The notes under the pieces were generated by a model, which made no database searches, was not told the origin of the DNA, and saw nothing but the letters and a program-made list of their open reading frames with translations. This document shows positions 757 to 61,920 of a stretch of 64,000 nt of DNA, one piece after another (position 1 is the stretch's first letter; every line of letters starts with the position of its first letter). This DNA comes from an uncultured Saprospiraceae bacterium (GTDB lineage Bacteria > Bacteroidota > Bacteroidia > Chitinophagales > Saprospiraceae). The translations under genes were made by a program, and so were the position numbers. The DNA is taken from positions 62,001 through 126,000 of the forward strand of contig CALJOK010000029.1 in the NCBI GenBank assembly GCA_937981555.1, given 5' to 3'.

Positions 757-3327
757 ATGAAATTAAATTTTACTTTTTTACCCATCCTATTCTTTTTTCT
801 TTTTGCAAATAATGCGATAGCTCAAACTGGAAAAACCTCCACTCTTGTCGGTCAAGTAACTGATGTTGAAACGGGTACTCCGATTGAGTTGGCCACCATT
901 TACATTAAAGAAAATACGAATTATTCCACCGAAGCTAGTCTTAATGGAAACTTCACTTTGAAAGTTCCACACAACAAAAGATTCACTTTATTGATTTCTC
1001 GAACTGGTTACAAAGAAGGTAGTATCGTCATCAATCCGATGCGAACTGGCGAAACGAGAAAACTAAATGTAAAACTCGCGAGTCAAGAATCAACACTCGA
1101 AGTGATCGTCACAGCAAGTAAATTAGAAGAAGCTGGAATGATAAAAGAGGATGTGGAAGAATTAAAATATATTCCATCTACGACAATGAATTTGGAAAAT
1201 GTATTGCCTCATATCGCACTTGGTGTGAGCAGCGGAACGGGTGGAGAATTGAGTTCCCAATATAATGTTCGTGGTGGAAATTATGATGAAAATTTAGTCT
1301 ACGTCAATGATTTTGAAATCTATCGACCCCAATTAATTCGAAGTGGGCAGCAAGAAGGTTTGTCATTTCCAAATATGGATTTGATTCGAGATTTGTCTTT
1401 TTCATCAGGTGGTTTTGAAGCTCGATATGGTGATAAGTTATCTTCGGTTTTGGATATAAAATACAAACGTCCTGATTCTACTCGCGCCTCGATTGGTTTG
1501 AGTGCCTTAGGGGGATCTGCACATATTGAAGGGAGTATGGATTTGGATTCTACCTTTCGAAAATTTAGATATTTAGTAGGAGCGAGATATAAAACAACTC
1601 GATATTTGTTAGGGACTTTGGATGTGCAAGGAGAATATGTTCCTAATTTTGCAGACATTCAAGGGTATTTTACATTTGACATTAATCGAGATTGGCAAGT
1701 AGGTTTGATTGGAAATTATAATCGAAGTGAATACCAATTTACACCTGCTTCAAGAGAAACGGCTTTTGGTTTGATCGATTTTTCGCTTGATCTTTTTACT
1801 GTTTTTGAAGGGCAAGAGGTAGATGACTTTACGACATACATGGCAGGTACTTCATTGACTTATGTGCCAGACCGAAAGTACAATCCTTTGTTCTTAAAAT
1901 TCTTAGCATCGGTTTATCAAAGCAATGAAAATGAGCGAATTGATATCATCGGTGATTATATTTTAGGTCAAATTGAAACAGGATTGGGGAGTGATAATTT
2001 TGGAGAAATCGTAGCAGTTTTAGGAACTGGAACGCAACACCAATTTGTAAGAAATTACTTGACGACTATCGTTTCAAACTTCGAACACAAGGGTGGTTTT
2101 GAAATGGAAAAAATGCATGACTCTTGGGAAACTTCCAGCAGTCATTTTTTACAATGGAATTTGAAATTTCAAAATGAACAAATCTTTGACGACCTCAACG
2201 AATGGGAAAGATTAGATTCCGCAGGTTACTCGTTGCCTTTTGATACGACTGCTGTGCAAGTGCAAAATGTCCTTAAAACTCAAAACGAATTAGTTACCAA
2301 TCGTCTTTCTGGTTCATTTCAAGATACTTACACTTTGCGAAAAGATAGTATCATGGAAATGAAAATTATGGCTGGTGTACGTGGTGCTTTTTGGAATGTA
2401 AAAAATAATTTTACTGGTGAATCAAACAACAATTTTTTAGTGACACCTCGTGCACAATTACTATACAAACCATTGAATTGGAAACGAGATATGTCTTTTC
2501 GATTTGCAACGGGATTGTATTTTCAACCTGCCTTTTATCGAGAAATGCGTCGCTTGGATGGAACGGTTAATGTTAATTTGAATGCACAAAAATCATTGCA
2601 TGTTTTAGGTGGATTCACTTGGGATTTTTATTCTGGAAAACGAGATCCAAAACTCTTTAGATTTATCACAGAGATATATTATAAAAAACTTTGGGACCTC
2701 GTCATTTACGATTTGGACAATGTTAGAATTCGATACTCAGGTGAAAATGATGCGACAGGTTATGTGGCAGGAATTGATTTGAGAGTCAATGGAGAGTTTG
2801 TTCCTGGAGCAGAGTCGTGGGTTAATATTTCCTTTCTTCGAGCGCGTGAAAGTATAACAGATGTGCAACATTTGAGTCGAGGAATTGGCGATACGACTGA
2901 TACTGAAATTAGTACGGTGCGACGACCGACAGATCGATTTATGAATTTAAATGTTTTCTTTCAAGATTACTTGCCAAAGAATGAGAACTTTAAAATGCAC
3001 TTAAACTTATCAGTCGGAACGGGTCTTCCTTTTGGACTTAAAGAAAATAATATAGTGCGTAGAAATCAATTTGAATTTGCTGCCTATCATAGAGTTGATA
3101 TTGGTTTTGCTTACCAATTGTGGGACAAGGAAAGACGAGCTAGGAAGCCAAAACATCCACTTCGATTTGCACGAAGTGCTTGGTTAAGTTTGGAAATTTT
3201 TAACCTTTTAGAAATTGCTAATACCGCTTCCAACACTTGGATCAAAACGATTTACAATACGCAATATGCCATTCCAAATAACTTGACTTCCCGTCGAATT
3301 AATTTGAGATTAAAAATGGATTTTTAA
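757..3327 (+). CDS. TonB-dependent outer-membrane receptor with carboxypeptidase-regulatory N-domain
   Basis: Predicted 856-residue outer-membrane transporter energised by TonB. A signal peptide (about residues 1-22, ending IAQ) is followed by a CarboxypepD_reg-like beta-sandwich (about 30-110, GQVTDVETGTPIELATIYI). Next comes a plug domain (about 120-230) with the typical YNVRGGNYDENLVYVNDFE segment, then a long beta-barrel ending in aromatic Phe, as in outer-membrane barrels. The length is typical for Bacteroidota receptors without a SusD partner, and no susD-like gene adjoins. The substrate cannot be read from the sequence. ATG at 757 places the signal peptide correctly. Confidence 0.9.
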   Translation: MKLNFTFLPILFFFLFANNAIAQTGKTSTLVGQVTDVETGTPIELATIYIKENTNYSTEASLNGNFTLKVPHNKRFTLLISRTGYKEGSIVINPMRTGETRKLNVKLASQESTLEVIVTASKLEEAGMIKEDVEELKYIPSTTMNLENVLPHIALGVSSGTGGELSSQYNVRGGNYDENLVYVNDFEIYRPQLIRSGQQEGLSFPNMDLIRDLSFSSGGFEARYGDKLSSVLDIKYKRPDSTRASIGLSALGGSAHIEGSMDLDSTFRKFRYLVGARYKTTRYLLGTLDVQGEYVPNFADIQGYFTFDINRDWQVGLIGNYNRSEYQFTPASRETAFGLIDFSLDLFTVFEGQEVDDFTTYMAGTSLTYVPDRKYNPLFLKFLASVYQSNENERIDIIGDYILGQIETGLGSDNFGEIVAVLGTGTQHQFVRNYLTTIVSNFEHKGGFEMEKMHDSWETSSSHFLQWNLKFQNEQIFDDLNEWERLDSAGYSLPFDTTAVQVQNVLKTQNELVTNRLSGSFQDTYTLRKDSIMEMKIMAGVRGAFWNVKNNFTGESNNNFLVTPRAQLLYKPLNWKRDMSFRFATGLYFQPAFYREMRRLDGTVNVNLNAQKSLHVLGGFTWDFYSGKRDPKLFRFITEIYYKKLWDLVIYDLDNVRIRYSGENDATGYVAGIDLRVNGEFVPGAESWVNISFLRARESITDVQHLSRGIGDTTDTEISTVRRPTDRFMNLNVFFQDYLPKNENFKMHLNLSVGTGLPFGLKENNIVRRNQFEFAAYHRVDIGFAYQLWDKERRARKPKHPLRFARSAWLSLEIFNLLEIANTASNTWIKTIYNTQYAIPNNLTSRRINLRLKMDF

Positions 3328-3436
3328 ATTAATGGTGAATGATTAACGGTGAACGGTTAATGTGACTAGCTCAAGAAATACATGTCATAATAATTAGTAA
3401 TATCATCAAAATTAATCATTCACCATTAACCATTAA
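3328..3436. repeat. Long intergenic inverted repeat
   Basis: The left arm, ATTAATGGTGAATGATTAAC, is mirrored by AATCATTCACCATTAACCAT at the right, with about 60 bases between. It fills the whole gap between the TonB receptor stop and the next gene, ending only about 6 bases before that gene's ATG. It would therefore be transcribed as part of the leader of the downstream gene. Confidence 0.7.
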
Positions 3437-3441
3437 AAACG

Positions 3442-4113: not shown

Positions 4114-4289
4114 TGTAACTACTTAACTTTTATGATAGAACACGGATGACGCAGATTTTGCGAATGGAAGCAGATTTGACGATTAGAGATGTAAGGGATT
4201 TTTACTCCAAAACAGAGTAATCGTCAGATCCGTGAAAATCTGCAAAATCTGCATCATCCGTGTTCTATCATATAATGGTAAGTAGCTAC
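4114..4289. repeat. Very long intergenic inverted repeat (about 175 bases)
   Basis: Arms of roughly 75-80 bases: GTAACTACTTA...ATGATAGAACACGGATGACG on the left is mirrored by CATCCGTGTTCTATCATATA...TAAGTAGCTAC on the right. Inner parts also pair (GCAGATTTTGCG with CTGCAAAATCTGC; TTTGACGATTA with TAATCGTCAGA). It lies between convergent genes. Words in it (GATTTGACGATTA, ACACGGAT) recur in the repeat at 46005-46120. Confidence 0.85.
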
Positions 4290-6766: not shown

Positions 6767-7206
6767 TTATACATTAAATTTTTTTCAATTATGATAATGT
6801 CTTTTTCCAATGAATCCCTTTATTCTCAGGGGTAAAGGGATGATTATGGAAAAAAATAATTGAACAGCTATCTCGATTCGTAATGCCAAATAGCTAGACT
6901 TCAATTTCATTTTTTCGAAAAAAATGAATGTGATGAAAAGCTATTTGAACGCCAATTTAGACCGTTTCAAATGCATAATGTAAAGGATGAAAAAAGTAAC
7001 AGGTGAGAAAAAACTTTAACATTTTAGGAAAAATCAGATTTGTTTTTTCATCTAGTCTCAATGTTTATATCGTAAGTGATATTAGAATAAGTCGAAAAAA
7101 ATGCAAATCACGGACATTGAAAGTGGACTTGTTGAGAGAAATTATGCTTCTATTTTTATTTATGATAAATTTGATTTTGCAGTTTGTTTCCTAAAATAAT
7201 ATTGTC
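6767..7206. other. Intergenic region between divergent genes, no gene recognised
   Basis: 440 AT-rich bases between the divergent sigma-factor and Omp85-type genes, so it should carry promoters for both. An imperfect inverted repeat sits at about 6886-6950: AAATAGCT pairs with AGCTATTT around a CATTTTTTCGAAAAAAATG core. A 63-codon GTG-started frame at 7003-7194 has no convincing coding character. Confidence 0.6.
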
Positions 7207-8334: not shown

Positions 8335-8405
8335 CGTAGGACCACTCCCCGAGTCGTTTTTTATTTGATGGCTTGGTGCTAAACGACTAGGAGAGTCGTC
8401 CTACG
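8335..8405. repeat. Intergenic inverted repeat directly after stop codon
   Basis: Arms CGTAGGACCACTCCCCGAGT and ACTAGGAGAGTCGTCCTACG pair over about 24 bases with a loop of about 20. It starts at the first base after the TAA of the Omp85-type gene and ends 27 bases before the next start. A T-run is present only in the loop. Confidence 0.75.
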
Positions 8406-13351: not shown

Positions 13352-13377
13352 GTTGAAAATTTTATTATTTAGATAAC

Positions 13378-13462
13378 ACCTTACACGTAGCGGTCTGCTT
13401 TAGCTGATCTAATTAATTAAAAAACAAATAGATCAGCTAAAGCAGACTGCTACGTAGAAGGT
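13378..13462. repeat. Intergenic inverted repeat overlapping a gene end
   Basis: Arms of about 33-35 bases (ACCTTACACGTAGCGGTCTG on the left, mirrored by CAGACTGCTACGTAGAAGGT on the right, with TTTAGCTGATCT/AGATCAGCTAAA inside). They flank a short A/T-rich loop. The right arm contains the TAG stop (13450-13452) and last codons of the GNAT gene on the minus strand. Confidence 0.85.
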
Positions 13463-14013
13463 CTTAGTTTCATTAAAACCAAAACCCATTCTTCCCCATC
13501 TTCAATTTGATAAGTTTTGATTACTTCAAAACCTACCTTTTCATGCGCTCGCAAAGACCGATAATTTCTCGAAGCAATTTCAGTTATGATATAATCAAAA
13601 TCAGGGCTCATCCTTCTTTTCATTTCTGCATAAAGTCCTGCAAAAACTCCTTGACCTCGATGTGATTTGGCAACACAAACTTGTCCCATCGTAAAATATT
13701 TAGTTTTTCCTAAATTCCTTCCTTCGTATTCTATAGAATCAATTTGATCAAACATTTCAATCAAAACTGGAATTTCATATTTCCATTCGGGAAGTTCCAC
13801 TAAAGTATATCCAATCACTTGGTCATCCTCTTTGGCAATAATATGAGCATAAGGCGAATTCATCCGAGTCAATAAATCCAAGTCATGTTCAACGGTAACA
13901 AAACCTTGAGACTTTAATTCATCAGAGGTGATACTTTTTTGCAGATTTTTTTGTTGCAATTCGAGGATACCTTTTAATTCTTCCTCGGTGGTAGATATTC
14001 CGTAAGTGACCAT
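13450..14013 (-). CDS. GNAT N-acetyltransferase
   Basis: 187 residues with a GNAT core. GYTLVELPEWKYEIPVL forms the middle strands. The acetyl-CoA site is QVCVAKSHRGQGVFAGLYAEMKRRM, and YIITEIASRNYRSLRAHEKVGFEVIKTYQ is the C-terminal half. The substrate is unknown. It lies upstream of the DinB gene on the same strand and downstream of the 14030-14566 gene, with a 16-base gap to the latter. Its last codons and stop lie inside an inverted repeat, so the C-terminus may have been altered by repeat insertion. Confidence 0.85.
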   Translation of the reverse strand: MVTYGISTTEEELKGILELQQKNLQKSITSDELKSQGFVTVEHDLDLLTRMNSPYAHIIAKEDDQVIGYTLVELPEWKYEIPVLIEMFDQIDSIEYEGRNLGKTKYFTMGQVCVAKSHRGQGVFAGLYAEMKRRMSPDFDYIITEIASRNYRSLRAHEKVGFEVIKTYQIEDGEEWVLVLMKLRPST

Positions 14014-18261: not shown

Positions 18262-18312
18262 TATTTAGTTGATTTAGAATGTTGTCAATTTTATTGATAC
18301 TCGTAGCGAAAA

Positions 18313-18343
18313 GGTATCGGATCCCTTAAAGGGATCCGATACC
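18313..18343. repeat. Perfect hairpin between yfhO-type gene and GT4 gene
   Basis: Fifteen-base perfect arms, GGTATCGGATCCCTT and AAGGGATCCGATACC, with a single-base loop. It lies 52 bases after the YfhO-type stop and 27 bases before the next start. There is no downstream T-run. Confidence 0.8.
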
Positions 18344-18369
18344 TAAACGTTTCACTTCACCAAAGAGTA

Positions 18370-19663: not shown

Positions 19664-19741
19664 ATTTTTACCACATAGGTATATAGAAAACATAGGTTTT
19701 TAACTCTGCCTATGTTTTCTATATACCTATGTGGTAAAAAA
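19664..19741. repeat. Perfect 32-base inverted repeat between convergent genes
   Basis: The left arm begins TTTTTACCACATAGGTATAT and is perfectly complementary over about 32 bases to the right arm, which ends at GTGGTAAAAA, around a loop of about 12 bases. It lies between the convergent GT4 and flippase genes, with A/T runs on both outer sides, so it can serve as a two-way terminator. Confidence 0.85.
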
Positions 19742-22426: not shown

Positions 22427-22547
22427 GTTCTTTGACAAATACCGTGTTTTAAGTCAGCTAAAAATTGGAAATAACATTTCCCCATTTATGAACGGGATCA
22501 TTTTTATTTCCAACTTTTGTCTGACCACGGGATTCGTCAAAGAATGT
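22427..22547. repeat. Imperfect intergenic inverted repeat
   Basis: TTCTTTGACAAATACCGTG and AATTGGAAATAA on the left are mirrored by TTATTTCCAA and CACGGGATTCGTCAAAGAA on the right, over about 45 bases with small bulges and a loop of about 25. It fills the gap between the TagB/TagF-like gene start and the methyltransferase stop. Confidence 0.7.
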
Positions 22548-25360: not shown

Positions 25361-25398
25361 AAAAAAAACTTGACTGAAATTTCAGTCAAGTTTTTTTA
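25361..25398 (-). terminator. Rho-independent terminator after DUF2853 gene
   Basis: AAACTTGACTGAAATTTCAGTCAAGTTT is a perfect hairpin flanked by A and T runs. It starts about 27 bases past the minus-strand DUF2853 stop and separates it from the glycan genes. Confidence 0.9.
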
Positions 25399-29309: not shown

Positions 29310-29424
29310 ATTTTTGCCGTAGATTTTGCCGCAGATTTTGCCGATTATTTAAGATATTTATGATTGACGAGCGTCATAGAATATATAGGATCATAAAAAT
29401 CATAATAGTCATTAAAACCTGCGG
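29310..29424. repeat. Intergenic inverted repeat with TTTTGCCG iterations
   Basis: TTTTTGCCG is repeated three times as TTTTGCCGYAGA-type units on the left, and the right end reads CCTGCGGCAAAAA. Inner parts pair as TATTTATGATTGAC with ATAATAGTCAT/ATCATAAAAATCAT. It lies between the DUF6428 and ArsN-like genes, 12 bases before the latter's ATG. Confidence 0.6.
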
Positions 29425-29436
29425 CAAAAAATAATA

Positions 29437-33145: not shown

Positions 33146-33235
33146 GTCTTATTCTCGCAAAGGCGTAAAGGTTTATTGAAAAGAATCAATCGAATTTTAT
33201 ACTTTACAACTAAGCGTTTTTGCGAGAGTAAAATT
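33146..33235. repeat. Imperfect inverted repeat in divergent gap
   Basis: TTCTCGCAAAGGCG...GTAAAGG on the left mirrors CTTTAC...GCGTTTTTGCGAGAG on the right, around about 30 bases. Unlike the others it lies in a divergent, promoter-bearing gap. Confidence 0.55.
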
Positions 33236-33395: not shown

Positions 33396-34211
33396 ATGTT
33401 AAACCAAATACCAAAAATTAAATATTTAGATCGCAATCATTTTTTTTTAATAGCTGGGCCTTGTGCAATTGAAAGCCGAGAAATGGCATTTGAAATAGCG
33501 GAGAAAGTAAGTGGAATTTGTGATCGATTAGAGATTCCATATATATTTAAAGGATCGTATCGAAAAGCGAATCGATCAAGATTAGATTCATTTACAGGTA
33601 TAGGAGATGAGAAAGCGTTAAATATTTTGAAAGAAATAGGGGAGAAGCTTGATTTGCCTGTCACGACTGATATACATACAGAGGAAGAAGCAGCAACGGC
33701 TGCTCAATATGTTGACATCCTTCAAATTCCTGCTTTTTTGTGTCGACAAACTAATTTGTTAGTTGCTGCAGCAAAAACTGGAAAAATTGTCAACATCAAA
33801 AAAGGACAATTTGTAAGTTCTGATGCGATGAAATTTGCAATGGATAAAGTGGTTCAATCAGGTAATGATAAAGTTTGGTTGACAGAGCGAGGAACGACTT
33901 TCGGTTATCAAGATTTGGTTGTTGATTTTCGAGGAATCCCTCAGATGCAAAGTTTTGGAGCGCCGGTGGTTTTGGATTGTACTCATTCTTTGCAGCAACC
34001 TAATCAAGCAAGCGGAGTTACAGGTGGAAAACCTGCTTTGATAGAAACCATTGCAAAAGCTGGTATTGCTGTAGGAGCGGATGGATTATTTATCGAAACT
34101 CATCCACAACCCTCTGAGGCTCAATCAGATGGAGCAAATATGTTGCCTCTTGACCGTTTGGAGGTTATGTTAGAAAAGTTATTAAAAATTAGGCAATCTT
34201 TAAGTTTTTAA
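33396..34211 (+). CDS. kdsA: 3-deoxy-8-phosphooctulonate synthase, metal-dependent type
   Basis: 271 residues. Condenses phosphoenolpyruvate with arabinose 5-phosphate to give KDO 8-phosphate for lipopolysaccharide. Motifs are HFFLIAGPCAIESREMA, FKGSYRKANRSRLDSFTGIG, TDIHTEEEA, NIKKGQF, LTERGTTFGYQDLVVD, CTHSLQQPNQASGVTGG and FIETHPQPSEAQSDGANMLPL. Cys23 in AGPCAIES, with downstream His, Glu and Asp ligands, matches the metal-requiring class; the E. coli-type enzyme has Asn there. It is the only LPS core-precursor gene in the window. Confidence 0.95.
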   Translation: MLNQIPKIKYLDRNHFFLIAGPCAIESREMAFEIAEKVSGICDRLEIPYIFKGSYRKANRSRLDSFTGIGDEKALNILKEIGEKLDLPVTTDIHTEEEAATAAQYVDILQIPAFLCRQTNLLVAAAKTGKIVNIKKGQFVSSDAMKFAMDKVVQSGNDKVWLTERGTTFGYQDLVVDFRGIPQMQSFGAPVVLDCTHSLQQPNQASGVTGGKPALIETIAKAGIAVGADGLFIETHPQPSEAQSDGANMLPLDRLEVMLEKLLKIRQSLSF

Positions 34212-45983: not shown

Positions 45984-46004
45984 TTCTCATTAATTTTTAT
46001 AGAA

Positions 46005-46120
46005 GGCAGATGCTGCGGATCGAGCGGATTTGACGATTACACTCATGGAGGAAATCTTGAGAACAATCGTCAAATTCGCTTACATTTGCTAGATCCGTCC
46101 AATCCGTGTTCCATCGCATC
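46005..46120. repeat. Inverted repeat related to 4114-4289 repeat
   Basis: The inner arms GGATTTGACGATT and AATCGTCAAATTCGC pair, and outer parts carry GATCCGTCCAATCCGTGTTCC. The same words (GATTTGACGATTA, CCGTGTTC) occur in the repeat at 4114-4289. It lies between the DUF72 and PyrR-like genes. Confidence 0.6.
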
Positions 46121-55858: not shown

Positions 55859-55921
55859 ACGTACTTCGAAGCTCCTGCTTCGAAACTACTTATTCTCCGA
55901 AGCAGGAGCTTAGGAGTACGT
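55859..55921. repeat. Intergenic inverted repeat at gene end
   Basis: Arms ACGTACTTCGAAGCTCCTGC and GCAGGAGCTTAGGAGTACGT pair over about 24 bases around a 15-base loop. The right arm abuts the stop codon (55921-55923) of the GH36 gene. Confidence 0.8.
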
Positions 55922-57636
55922 TACGATTTCAAAATTATTGACTCAAATGGATCTAACTCAATCTGTTGTTTTTTAACCAAAAAGGAAGTCTTTTTATTGC
56001 TCAAATTACAAGCTGCCACAAATCGTTTTCCACCTTGATTAAAAGAAATCAGATACTTATCATTCGTCAAATTTTGTACCTCTTTTACTTCACTATTTTG
56101 GAGATGATAAATTAATTCAAATTCACTCCATTGTTCGGTAGAGTATTCGCCTGTGAAATCAGAAGTGAAAATTAAGTTTCCACATAAAGTATTGATTATC
56201 AGTAAAGTATACTGTTGATTTGGAGTTAATTTGTTGTTTTCTTTTCTTAAAATAAAAACATCAGGATCATTGTGAAAAACTCGATTATTTAGCTGCCATC
56301 GACCTAATGTGGAACGCAAAGATAGCAAGGTAGAAACTCGTTCTCGATTGCCATTGAAGCGCTGCCAGTTGTCTTCCCATTGCAAATGTACATCTGCTCC
56401 AATGCGGCAAAAATCTACTTTTCCAAAAGCACTTCCTAAAGGAACTCCACAACCTAAAATCATTTTATTACCAGCTTGGATTTTTAAAAAATCCATGGCA
56501 TCGTGCATGATTTGCCCACGTGTTTTATTTTTTGTTGGAAAAATACAAACCGCATAAAGGAAGTCTAATTTGAGAAAATCGAAACCCCATTTTTTAGTAA
56601 AAGTACCGATGACTTGGATCAAATAATCTTGCACTTCTTTTTGATAAAAATCTAAAACATAGAAACTTCCACCCCATAAATTGATGTTGCCAGCGACAAA
56701 TGGTTTTCCACTTTTATCTTTGACTAACCAATGTTTTTTTTGTTTAAAAATTTCAGATTTTGCATCACAAATAAATGGCGCCAACCAAATTCCAGCTTTG
56801 TAATTAGCTTGTTTTATTTTTTGAGCGACATGTGCCATACCATTTGGAAAAGACGATTTAATGCTCAACCAATCGCCGACTTGAGTTTGATAACCATCAT
56901 CAATTTGAATGTAATCAAGAGGAGTGTTTTTCTCAGAAAATGCATTTAGATTTTTTAAAATAATCTCTTCTGAAATATCCGTGTAGTAGTTATACCAACT
57001 TGTCCAACCGGTACTCGGCTGTGCTCGAAGTGGAGGCAAATCCATTTCGTTTTTCCATTGATCAAAAAGAGAATGCTCTTTTCCTTGACCAACAAATATA
57101 TCCAGAATAGGGAAGGAGTGACTCAATTCTAAATCGTTACAATCTTTTTCCACGATGATTTGCTGAGCAGCCACATCATGAATAAAATAAGTGAAAGCAG
57201 CATTCTCTTTGAGTGATCCTAAGAATGTGAAATTATTGTTATTTTTAATGTAAGTGTAACTCCAAGAATGGAATTTATTTTTACCTCTTGGAATTTCTTT
57301 GATGTGTTCGTCACCAAAGTATTGACGATTTTTTGCCCAAAATTTAAGTGATGGAATTTTTTCTCCTAATTGATATTCGCGACTTTCTGACCAAGATTGA
57401 TACCCATTGCAAAAAATACGAGGGTCTTCGCTCGACAAGAAAGCGTGATTAAAGACCAAGGATAATTTTTTGATTTGAATGGATTGCTTAGGATGGATTG
57501 CGAGGTGGTAAGTTTGATAACTCCCTTTGTCTACTTGCTTGAAATCAACGTACAACTCATCGAAAAAAGTCATTTTGTTGAAAGGGAATTCTACCGTTTG
57601 GTCGTCGTATTGAAGTATGGCTTTTGCGAATTGCAT
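55921..57636 (-). CDS. GH36-type alpha-galactosidase-like enzyme
   Basis: 571 residues, no signal peptide, so probably cytoplasmic. The (beta/alpha)8 domain shows STGWTSWYNYYTDISEEIILKNL, IQIDDGYQTQVGDW, AGIWLAPFICDAKSEIF and FDFLKLDFLYA. The nucleophile candidate is Asp358 in LKLDFLY, and the acid/base candidate is Asp415 in RIGADVHLQW. The N-terminal beta-sandwich is normal. GH36 enzymes release alpha-galactose from raffinose-type sugars or glycans. It is a single gene without sugar-uptake genes beside it. Confidence 0.9.
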   Translation of the reverse strand: MQFAKAILQYDDQTVEFPFNKMTFFDELYVDFKQVDKGSYQTYHLAIHPKQSIQIKKLSLVFNHAFLSSEDPRIFCNGYQSWSESREYQLGEKIPSLKFWAKNRQYFGDEHIKEIPRGKNKFHSWSYTYIKNNNNFTFLGSLKENAAFTYFIHDVAAQQIIVEKDCNDLELSHSFPILDIFVGQGKEHSLFDQWKNEMDLPPLRAQPSTGWTSWYNYYTDISEEIILKNLNAFSEKNTPLDYIQIDDGYQTQVGDWLSIKSSFPNGMAHVAQKIKQANYKAGIWLAPFICDAKSEIFKQKKHWLVKDKSGKPFVAGNINLWGGSFYVLDFYQKEVQDYLIQVIGTFTKKWGFDFLKLDFLYAVCIFPTKNKTRGQIMHDAMDFLKIQAGNKMILGCGVPLGSAFGKVDFCRIGADVHLQWEDNWQRFNGNRERVSTLLSLRSTLGRWQLNNRVFHNDPDVFILRKENNKLTPNQQYTLLIINTLCGNLIFTSDFTGEYSTEQWSEFELIYHLQNSEVKEVQNLTNDKYLISFNQGGKRFVAACNLSNKKTSFLVKKQQIELDPFESIILKS

Positions 57637-57641
57637 GATGT

Positions 57642-57722
57642 TTAGTTGATCGGTGAATTAGTTGATCAAGGGATTAAGTAATCGGTGTCCTAATGAACTA
57701 ATTCACCAATCATCTAGTCAAC
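57642..57722. repeat. Inverted repeat overlapping a gene end
   Basis: TAGTTGATCGGTGAATTAGT on the left mirrors ACTAATTCACCAATCATCTA plus TCAACTA on the right, with small bulges. The right arm carries the stop codon (57714-57716) and last codons of the DUF922 gene. Confidence 0.65.
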
Positions 57723-58298: not shown

Positions 58299-58336
58299 GT
58301 TTAGTATTTCTTGTAACTTAAAATTAATAATCAAAG

Positions 58337-58424
58337 ATAATCAGTTAATGAGTAGAAAAAGAAATTAGGTAATCAGATGATTGGTTTACTGACTACCTAA
58401 TTTTTTAAGGGATTGATTAACTAA
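58337..58424. repeat. Imperfect inverted repeat between DUF922 and tsaC genes
   Basis: AATTAGGTAATCAG pairs with CTGACTACCTAATT in the core (about 58361-58402), with outer CAGTTAAT/GATTAACT. It may act as a terminator of the minus-strand tsaC gene. Confidence 0.6.
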
Positions 58425-58427
58425 GCA

Positions 58428-59024
58428 TCATTCCCTTAAGAAAATCAATTCTTCCTTCTCTGAAAATTTAGCAATCACGGAAGGTTGACTCAATTTCTTT
58501 TCTCCTTGTTTCCATTTTACTACATAATCCACACCAGTAATCACATCAGAACTAATTCCTCCAAAATTCGCAGGAAATGGTTTGTCGCTAATGTTAGCAG
58601 AAGAAGCGATCAAAGGTTTTCCAAATTGTCCAATTAACTCTTTGCAAAAAGAATCTTGCACTACTCTAATCGCCACACTACCACTCTTATCATGAGAAAT
58701 TGGAGGTAGATTTTTAGCACGATCATAAATCATCGTGAGTGGTTGCAGATGGTGCATTAGTAAAGTTTCTATTCTAGGATGAACGTGCTCGACATAATTT
58801 TTGAGCATTTCGATGGAGTTGACTAGGAGGACAAAAGGTTTGTCGTAAGGTCTTCTTTTAAGGTCAAAAATTCGTTGGACAGCATCCCCATTAGTAGCGT
58901 CGCAACCAATTCCCCAAATAGTGTCAGTTGGATAAAGGATCAATCCACTATTTTCTAAAGTTGTTGTAATAGTTTCGAGATTGTCTTTTCCAAACATTAA
59001 TTGTTGTAGGTCAGTTTGCATCAT
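58428..59024 (-). CDS. tsaC: L-threonylcarbamoyladenylate synthase
   Basis: 198 residues, YrdC/Sua5 core. LILYPTDTIWGIGCDATNGDAVQRIFDLKRRPYDKPFVLLVNS, LTMIYDRAKNLP, SGSVAIRVVQDSF and GKPLIASSANISDKPFPANF carry the nucleotide and threonine sites. It makes threonylcarbamoyl-AMP from threonine, bicarbonate and ATP for the t6A modification of tRNAs reading ANN codons. The length is the short TsaC form, without the extra Sua5 domain. Confidence 0.93.
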   Translation of the reverse strand: MMQTDLQQLMFGKDNLETITTTLENSGLILYPTDTIWGIGCDATNGDAVQRIFDLKRRPYDKPFVLLVNSIEMLKNYVEHVHPRIETLLMHHLQPLTMIYDRAKNLPPISHDKSGSVAIRVVQDSFCKELIGQFGKPLIASSANISDKPFPANFGGISSDVITGVDYVVKWKQGEKKLSQPSVIAKFSEKEELIFLRE

Positions 59025-61818: not shown

Positions 61819-61920
61819 GTTATTGAATATTGAGTAAAGATTTATGATTTAAGAAGCTGGATGATATTTCTTGTATTCTCATGAAACTGCCGCCATTTTT
61901 ACCTAATATCCAATAGTTTT
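61819..61920. repeat. Weak inverted repeat after first PKD gene
   Basis: TATTGAATATTGAGTAAA (about 61820-61840) mirrors TTTTTACCTAATATCCAATAG (about 61898-61918) with mismatches, around about 60 bases. Confidence 0.45.

Follow-up and report, generated by a model that had tools for sequence, protein, structure and literature searches.

The long intergenic palindromes of the 64-kb stretch of DNA analysed here (the window), which is part of a source genome of 7.25 Mb in 117 contigs (G000), are probably RAYT-type REPs together with MITE-like palindromes without tags, both of which would enter gene junctions and decay there afterwards. We observed families with further copies in the genome, sites that are empty in same-genus genomes used for comparison (G001–G004), a RAYT gene flanked by repeats of one window family (H), no mismatch asymmetry of the RNA type, joint changes of both arms in one untagged family (A2) and one inversion in place. 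The untagged palindromes are the part of interest in the window.

A stem-scoring hairpin scan was performed on 864 kb of the source genome, including the window, with one dinucleotide shuffle of the same DNA as control. At a score of at least 14 it gave 256 hairpins versus 20 in the shuffle, at 16 or above 158 versus 3, and at 20 or above 66 versus none; the expectation at the lowest cut-off, taken from this one shuffle (20 in 864 kb), is about 1.5 per 64 kb. Long palindromes are genuinely in excess, but they form a mixture of RAYT-type REPs, terminator-like hairpins outside the list that had been made earlier, two conserved sites and several untagged palindromes. A second sample of 994 kb (13.7% of the genome) contained 186 hairpins with a score of at least 16, of which 41 were terminator-like; 132 of the 145 others were intergenic. 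The placement directly after stop codons, claimed earlier for the window, holds generally in this sample, with a median distance of 5 nt and 74 of 118 hairpins within 10 nt of the stop codon. In 325 kb of G003, 20 hairpins that are not terminator-like were found, corresponding to 6.2 per 100 kb versus 14.6 in the source genome.

The original prediction had listed sixteen inverted repeats in the window. Twelve of these (623, 3328, 4114, 6886, 8335, 13378, 18313, 19664, 22427, 29310, 55859 and 57642) score at least 14, while three are weak: 46005 (23-nt arms, 83%) and 58337 (44-nt arms, 70%) are inverted-repeat pairs with a hairpin score below 14, and 33146 is a short imperfect hairpin as judged by eye. 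The last, at 61819, was absent both from the hairpin scan at 14 or above and from the 25 longest of the 56 inverted-repeat pairs of the window. Among these 25 longest pairs, the ungapped arms of the listed sites measure 18–58 nt and are 70–100% complementary; those of 4114 reach about 72 nt each when gaps are allowed. Further hairpins scoring at least 14 lie at 25362, 35324, 42289 and 49032, with short loops and a terminator-like appearance, and within ORFs at 33720 and 52345. None of the long window hairpins with an ortholog pair was assigned to the terminator-like class (short loop and T-run), and an Rfam scan of the whole window at curated thresholds matched no family. The description of the repeats as mostly unrelated in sequence is right in so far as about ten sequence types are mixed, but most of them have further copies in the genome. 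Arm periodicity (p≤0.02) was found in 17 of 96 long arms versus 3 of 96 control stretches; it is not a general property, since only 5 of the 13 window arms tried display it (623, 3328, 29310, 46005 and 58337).

The sites at 623, 3328, 4114, 19664, 29310 and 46005 belong to dispersed palindrome families, for which no partner gene was found. An A2 palindrome (GCCACAGAC..ACAGACTTTACTGAC) spans positions 619–711 with arms of about 38 nt and a loop of 16, palindrome B (GGTGAATGATTAACGGTGAACGG), with an 18-nt perfect arm core, spans 3321–3439, and A1 palindromes (GATAGAACACGGATGAC..GTCATCCGTGTTCTATC type) are located at 4115–4289 and 46003–46117. At the first of these, about 20 nt beyond the family ends (4115–4134 and 4270–4289) are also complementary, an outer pair for which no second copy was found in the 994-kb sample. 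Palindrome D (ACCACATAGG..ACATAGG) occupies 19665–19740, palindrome J, with weakly similar copies elsewhere, 22428–22544, and 29310–29429 is taken up by an A-like palindrome whose left arm contains GCCGCAGATTTT repeats. Palindrome C (AGTTGATCGGTGAATTAGTTGATC, 57643–57716), for which no second copy was matched in the sample, and the imperfect, 70% complementary and C-like palindrome at 58333–58432 (TAATCAGTTAAT..ATTAGGTAATCAG) are likened to the untagged dispersed families by eye only. The arms of 623, 3321, 4115, 19665, 22428, 29310, 46003 and 58333 show no self-folding beyond chance and no hairpin-foot tag, while those of C fold weakly (z −2.6 and −2.1), again without a tag.

The A1 pattern was matched 24 times (12+12) in the source genome versus no match of the reversed control. 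It was also found in 76 of 296 Bacteroidota genomes, with 83 matches in one of them (G086), versus 12 matches of the reversed control in 10 of the 296 (counted by eye); among the 76 positive genomes, some 32 contain just one match (counted by eye). Only 8 of 30 A1 search loci form hairpins scoring at least 14; the rest score lower or form none, and often consist of a single arm. The ends of the listed A1 copies of the source genome are conserved (GATRGAAC..GTTCYATC type), and A1 is the one family with conserved terminal inverted repeats as known from MITEs. No transposase could be tied to the untagged families, and the ORFs at ten A2 and D loci, read by eye, contained neither a transposase nor a common candidate. 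No clean target-site duplication was detected; a short direct repeat, TATTTTT, is possibly present at both edges of 22428, and the flanks in G086 are inconsistent. Among the top-ranked open-access titles and abstract openings nothing pointed to untagged palindrome families of Bacteroidota, and the element motif strings returned only an unrelated match from the open-access literature.

The two arms of an element can be more alike than the element is to its nearest whole copy. In the D copy at 19665 the arms are identical over 32 of 32 positions, the most similar whole copy elsewhere in the genome being 80% alike, and in one A2 copy they agree in 36 of 36, with the best other copy at 83%; this contrast applies to whole elements, as single arms elsewhere can match more closely. 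We tentatively consider it possible that A1, A2, B and D form a class of Bacteroidota palindromes which occurs phylum-wide as single arms or hairpins, has no Y1 transposase of its own, can nest in other elements and in several cases carries degenerate 7–12-nt arm repeats, and whose copies would arise or become perfect again through DNA synthesis folding back from one arm. Such synthesis would allow the arms to be identical while the nearest whole copy is only about 80% alike.

It is unlikely that the untagged palindromes derive from ordinary DDE-transposon MITEs as their cargo or remnants. In G086, A1 palindromes do lie inside elements of 141–216 bp with 15-nt terminal repeats like GAGACYTCTGAAAAA (at most 3 mismatches), of which 11 distinct copies were present in the 30 loci examined (L257–L286), and the possible direct repeat at the edges of 22428 would fit an insertion of this kind. 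However, the listed A1 copies of the source genome have GATRGAAC-like ends without a terminal repeat resembling GAGACYTCTGAAAAA, and no consistent target duplication flanks the G086 elements. Some of the latter contain a further palindrome (CACCCCGTGGAATA..) nested in an A1 arm, and several A1 matches in G086 are located at contig ends.

A second group of sites consists of head-to-head doublets of the REP type. Doublet E (GTAGGACNACTCnCCnAGTCGT) spans 8335–8405, where the right arm folds alone and the left does not, and doublet H (GTAG + GGTCTGCTTTAGCTGATC) spans 13374–13466; in this H copy the mini-hairpin is degenerate and neither arm folds, while tag and mini-hairpin are seen in other copies of the family. 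Both E and H carry the GTAG/GTGG tag 0–2 nt before a small hairpin that characterises RAYT REPs. The REP-like doublet G (55859–55921) contains a mini-hairpin (CGAAGCTCCTGCTTCG) in its arm and is tagged by GTAC instead of GTAG/GTGG, which places it outside this definition. At least one arm each of E and G folds alone (z −3.4 and −4.8, respectively). The TAA stop codon of the preceding GH31-like gene (55921–55923) overlaps the edge of doublet G, and in G003, where the element is absent, the last codons of this gene differ. A further site, I, is a 33-nt near-perfect palindrome (AGGTATCGGATCCCTTAAAGGGATCCGATACCT, 18312–18344) with additional copies in the sample.

Three matches to PF01797 were obtained in the source genome. 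The RAYT gene L011 (contig C71) is flanked by units of the type GTGG-GGTCTGCTTTAGC(A/T)GACC, which belong to family H; twelve H doublets were picked up in the sample, including the one at 13374, and two of them adjoin the RAYT gene. A second RAYT gene, on contig C18, was missed by PF01797 and matched in a search with the L011 protein; it is flanked by GTACCGGCGAATTCATTCGCCG doublets, a type also present elsewhere in the genome. Among the window families only H flanks a RAYT gene (L011/L232), as does family O outside the window (L248), and for E, G and the untagged families no RAYT gene flanked by the same repeat was found among the genes from the PF01797 and L011 searches. The search for RAYT genes suggested by the original prediction returned, genome-wide, two RAYTs and two related Y1 genes, all outside the window, and its statement that the window contains no mobilising gene is upheld for the 20 window proteins scanned (the window has 55 ORFs of at least 100 aa) and by the absence of a PF01797 match there. 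The proposed REP/RAYT origin stands for 13378, whose type of doublet also flanks a RAYT gene, and on architectural grounds for 8335 and 55859, but it is not supported for the other families. A relative of one of the RAYTs with 77% identity occurs in a Saprospiraceae MAG, which makes it probable that the source organism belongs to the Saprospiraceae. A RAYT gene of G001 is adjoined by GTAGCGGGACTCTCCTGAGTCCC, which is reminiscent of 8335. By eye, the Y motif of L011 resembles that of subclass 2.4, whose members in Bacteroidetes are associated with long and 'double foot' REPs according to passages of PMC6006769. The two related Y1 genes, L009 (C22:175595-176053) and L010 (C76:90176-90634), have a YIxNQxEHH-type motif like subclass 1.2, which the same passages list without a REP (PMC6006769), and are adjoined by AGCCCCAAAGGGGC or GCCCTGAAAGGGC palindromes; a 241-bp hairpin with AGCCCCAAAGGGGC is located at C29:19252.

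Whether all palindromes could be REPs of RAYT transposases, with the RAYTs of the untagged families lost or unrecognised, has to be weighed against these results, and we regard it as quite improbable. A PF01797 match is present in 68 of the 76 A1-positive genomes (by eye) versus 210 of 296 overall, an association that genome size and phylogeny may confound; for RAYT subclass 2.6 of Bacteroidetes, PMC6006769 speaks of 'atypical secondary structures', and since the second RAYT was missed by PF01797, others may be missed as well. However, no tag adjoins a mini-hairpin in the window arms of A, B, C, D and J, and inspection by eye of the flanks of the three Y1 genes and of 12 RAYT loci (2 of them without a RAYT ORF) revealed none of the A, B, C and D motifs. 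Eight A1-positive genomes are without a PF01797 match, four of which have at least 2 A1 matches and one of which has 7, although this is weak evidence because PF01797 misses some RAYTs. A single mobiliser for all elements was rejected, because the architectures of the families differ and only H among the window families was found beside a RAYT.

Comparison with the same-genus genomes revealed a turnover of hairpins. An ortholog pair in the G003 stretch was available for 76 of the 644 sample junctions, and a long hairpin (score of at least 14, not terminator-like) was present in G000 only at 19 of these, in G003 only at 2 and in both at 3, of which one pair is homologous; of the remainder, 46 had none, 5 a terminator-like hairpin in G000, and 1 a long hairpin facing a terminator-like one. 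The 19 junctions without a hairpin in G003 measure at most 42 nt there in 9 cases and 51–255 nt in the other 10, some of which hold a decayed remnant. In 100 non-divergent comparisons with the four genomes, 22 junctions had a hairpin in G000 only, 7 in the relative only and 58 in neither; the 22 include two homologous, sub-threshold remnants, that of 3321 in G001 and that of 57643 in G003. In the remaining 13, both genomes had a hairpin not scored as homologous, with that of 623 in G001 sharing the start of the A2 family. Relatives thus held another hairpin at 13 of 35 junctions with a G000 hairpin versus 7 of 65 without (pooled p=0.003), but the comparisons are not independent and no single genome is significant. 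Re-use of junctions as a special effect was rejected on this ground, and permissiveness of the junctions could explain the numbers.

At the individual sites, the junctions of the window hairpins are often empty in the relatives or hold another hairpin or unpaired sequence. At 623, the hairpins of G001, G002 and G004 are not scored as homologous and G003 has nothing over the threshold; at 3321, the element is absent in G003 and homologous and sub-threshold in G001, and G004 has an A1-type hairpin; at 4115, the junction is a gap of 26 nt in G001 and of 13 nt in G002, is without a hairpin in G003 and holds an unrelated one in G004. The 8335 junction is without such an element in G002 and carries a different hairpin in G004, H at 13374 is absent in G001, and different hairpins occupy the 18312 junction in G001, G002 and G003. 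Both D (19665) and J (22428) are absent in G001 and G003, no hairpin over the threshold is found at 29310 in G003, which alone among the relatives has both flanks, and G (55859) is absent in G003, with junctions lacking a hairpin over the threshold in G002 and G004. At 57643, a homologous but sub-threshold sequence is present in G003 and other hairpins in G002 and G004. From these empty or differently filled junctions and sub-threshold remnants we conclude that most of the elements are recent or short-lived and that pairing is often lost. The recent gain envisaged earlier is supported by the empty sites in same-genus relatives, while the selection for pairing offered beside it is unnecessary, as the homologous copies of 3328 in G001 and 57642 in G003 are now sub-threshold.

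Two sites are retained in relatives and do not fit a recent insertion. The sequence of hairpin K (6887–6947) is found at its site in G001, no less similar than the flanks are (about 90%), and related sequence in G002–G004; K is not a recent insertion and may be a leader or regulatory element. The weak hairpin-like stretch F (TCTCGCAAAGGCG, 33150–33230) is identical to G003 in 78 of 81 bases, with flanks at only 78–84%, and is a candidate for a conserved cis element, with a DAHP synthase gene downstream of it.

In an RNA under selection, G–U mismatches would be expected to predominate. In 139 long hairpins between co-directional genes (score of at least 13, G000 and G003), sense-strand G–U and A–C mismatches were equally frequent (101:101), compared to 36:15 in 83 short or terminator-like control hairpins; at a score of at least 16 the ratio was 67:64 for long hairpins, with only 12:6 in the control. 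Selection on RNA pairing is not supported for the long hairpins, since G–U is not in excess of A–C. Terminators were rejected for the long hairpins, and 145 of the 186 sampled hairpins at 16 or above are not terminator-like. That transcript selection maintains the palindromes as terminators or as elements for RNA stability or RNA 3' ends is very unlikely: they do lie near stop codons, are rarer at divergent than at convergent junctions (13 versus 42 long hairpins, each per 113 junctions of at least 20 nt in the 994-kb sample), and their junctions more often hold another hairpin in relatives (the non-independent 13/35 versus 7/65 above), but in addition to the balanced mismatches and the 145 hairpins that are not terminator-like, the junctions are empty in close relatives and the surviving homologous copies pair below the threshold. 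The RNA-stability function named in the original prediction is accordingly unsupported for the long hairpins.

The alternative it named, a process at the DNA level, is the better part of that interpretation. In 15 A2 copies (from 17 rows, excluding L159 with one short arm and a second overlapping row of L047), two-sided changes were found in 13 of 30 pairs and in 31 cells versus 8.6 in shuffles, none of 500 reaching this value; this alignment also supplied the structure, and relatedness is not preserved in the shuffles. In a second count over these copies, 27 joint arm changes versus 6.6 were obtained, and 17 of the 27 are transversional and so cannot pass through a single G–U step. The 11 copies of D with both arms above the score cut-off displayed 6 joint changes versus 2.3 (shuffled maximum 7, not significant), while H, with 10, slightly exceeds its shuffled maximum of 9; joint arm change therefore does not separate the untagged families from RAYT REPs. 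No joint change beyond the shuffles was observed in A1 (5 versus 10.2 shuffled; 7 copies with both ends matching and set spacing), leaving A2 as the one clear case. Extension of the stem past the A2 core is equivocal, with a mean run of 3.80 against a shuffled maximum of 3.73 and 5.87 versus 5.49 matches in the first 10 nt outside the core. In one case, the A1 palindrome at 46003, the G003 copy scores 40 when inverted and 17 when direct, as expected from an inversion of the loop in place; in G001 the orientation is that of the source genome. According to PMC8604942 and PMC8794818, template switching at inverted repeats is recognised by joint changes of several bases in both arms and by inversion of the loop. 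The comparisons suggest that template switching may act on the A2 arms and on 46005; such a DNA-level process fits the joint changes in A2 and the one inversion, but is not seen in A1.

We return to the reading of the window as RAYT-type REPs and MITE-like palindromes, for which the following course of events can be proposed. E, H and G are REP-type doublets, a kind of repeat that RAYT transposases are presumed to mobilise in single-stranded form, with H probably served by its own RAYT in the source genome, and A1, A2, B, D and J (C by likeness only) are MITE-like palindromes without tags, which we infer to move by transposition. Both would enter gene junctions, which are often very short, and this would place them beside stop codons; the closeness to stop codons is in part a consequence of such short target junctions, although only 9 of the 19 junctions empty in G003 measure 42 nt or less. 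The inserted palindromes would decay later, and template switching inside the hairpin, as the presumed cause, would re-match the arms or flip the loop.

If the untagged families are mobile, they constitute a class of intergenic repeats in many Bacteroidota without an assigned enzyme, and the same-genus genomes already provide filled and empty sites for their study. If template switching makes the arms alike, covariation in such a hairpin should not be taken to prove that it works as RNA, a practical caution for searches of structured RNAs.

Compared to template switching as described in PMC8604942 and PMC8794818, the joint arm changes in A2 and the loop inversion of 46005 in G003 are alike; however, template switching is a mutational process and not an element, is deduced here by comparison and is not seen in A1. 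Compared to prokaryotic MITEs (PMC10969869), the untagged families differ in having no known autonomous partner or clear target duplication and in that the whole element is palindromic, but they are likewise short, non-coding and dispersed, with empty sites in relatives, and A1 has conserved ends. With respect to the REPs and REPINs of RAYT/TnpA-REP proteins, in particular of subclass 2.4 (PMC6006769, PMC3733652 and PMC3116915), the untagged families lack a tag at a mini-hairpin and a RAYT partner was not found for them, and G and O differ by GTAC in place of GTAG/GTGG. In contrast, E, G, H and O correspond to these systems as head-to-head doublets of tagged mini-hairpins, are likewise intergenic and dispersed, and in the case of H and O flank a RAYT gene with a Y motif similar by eye to that of subclass 2.4.
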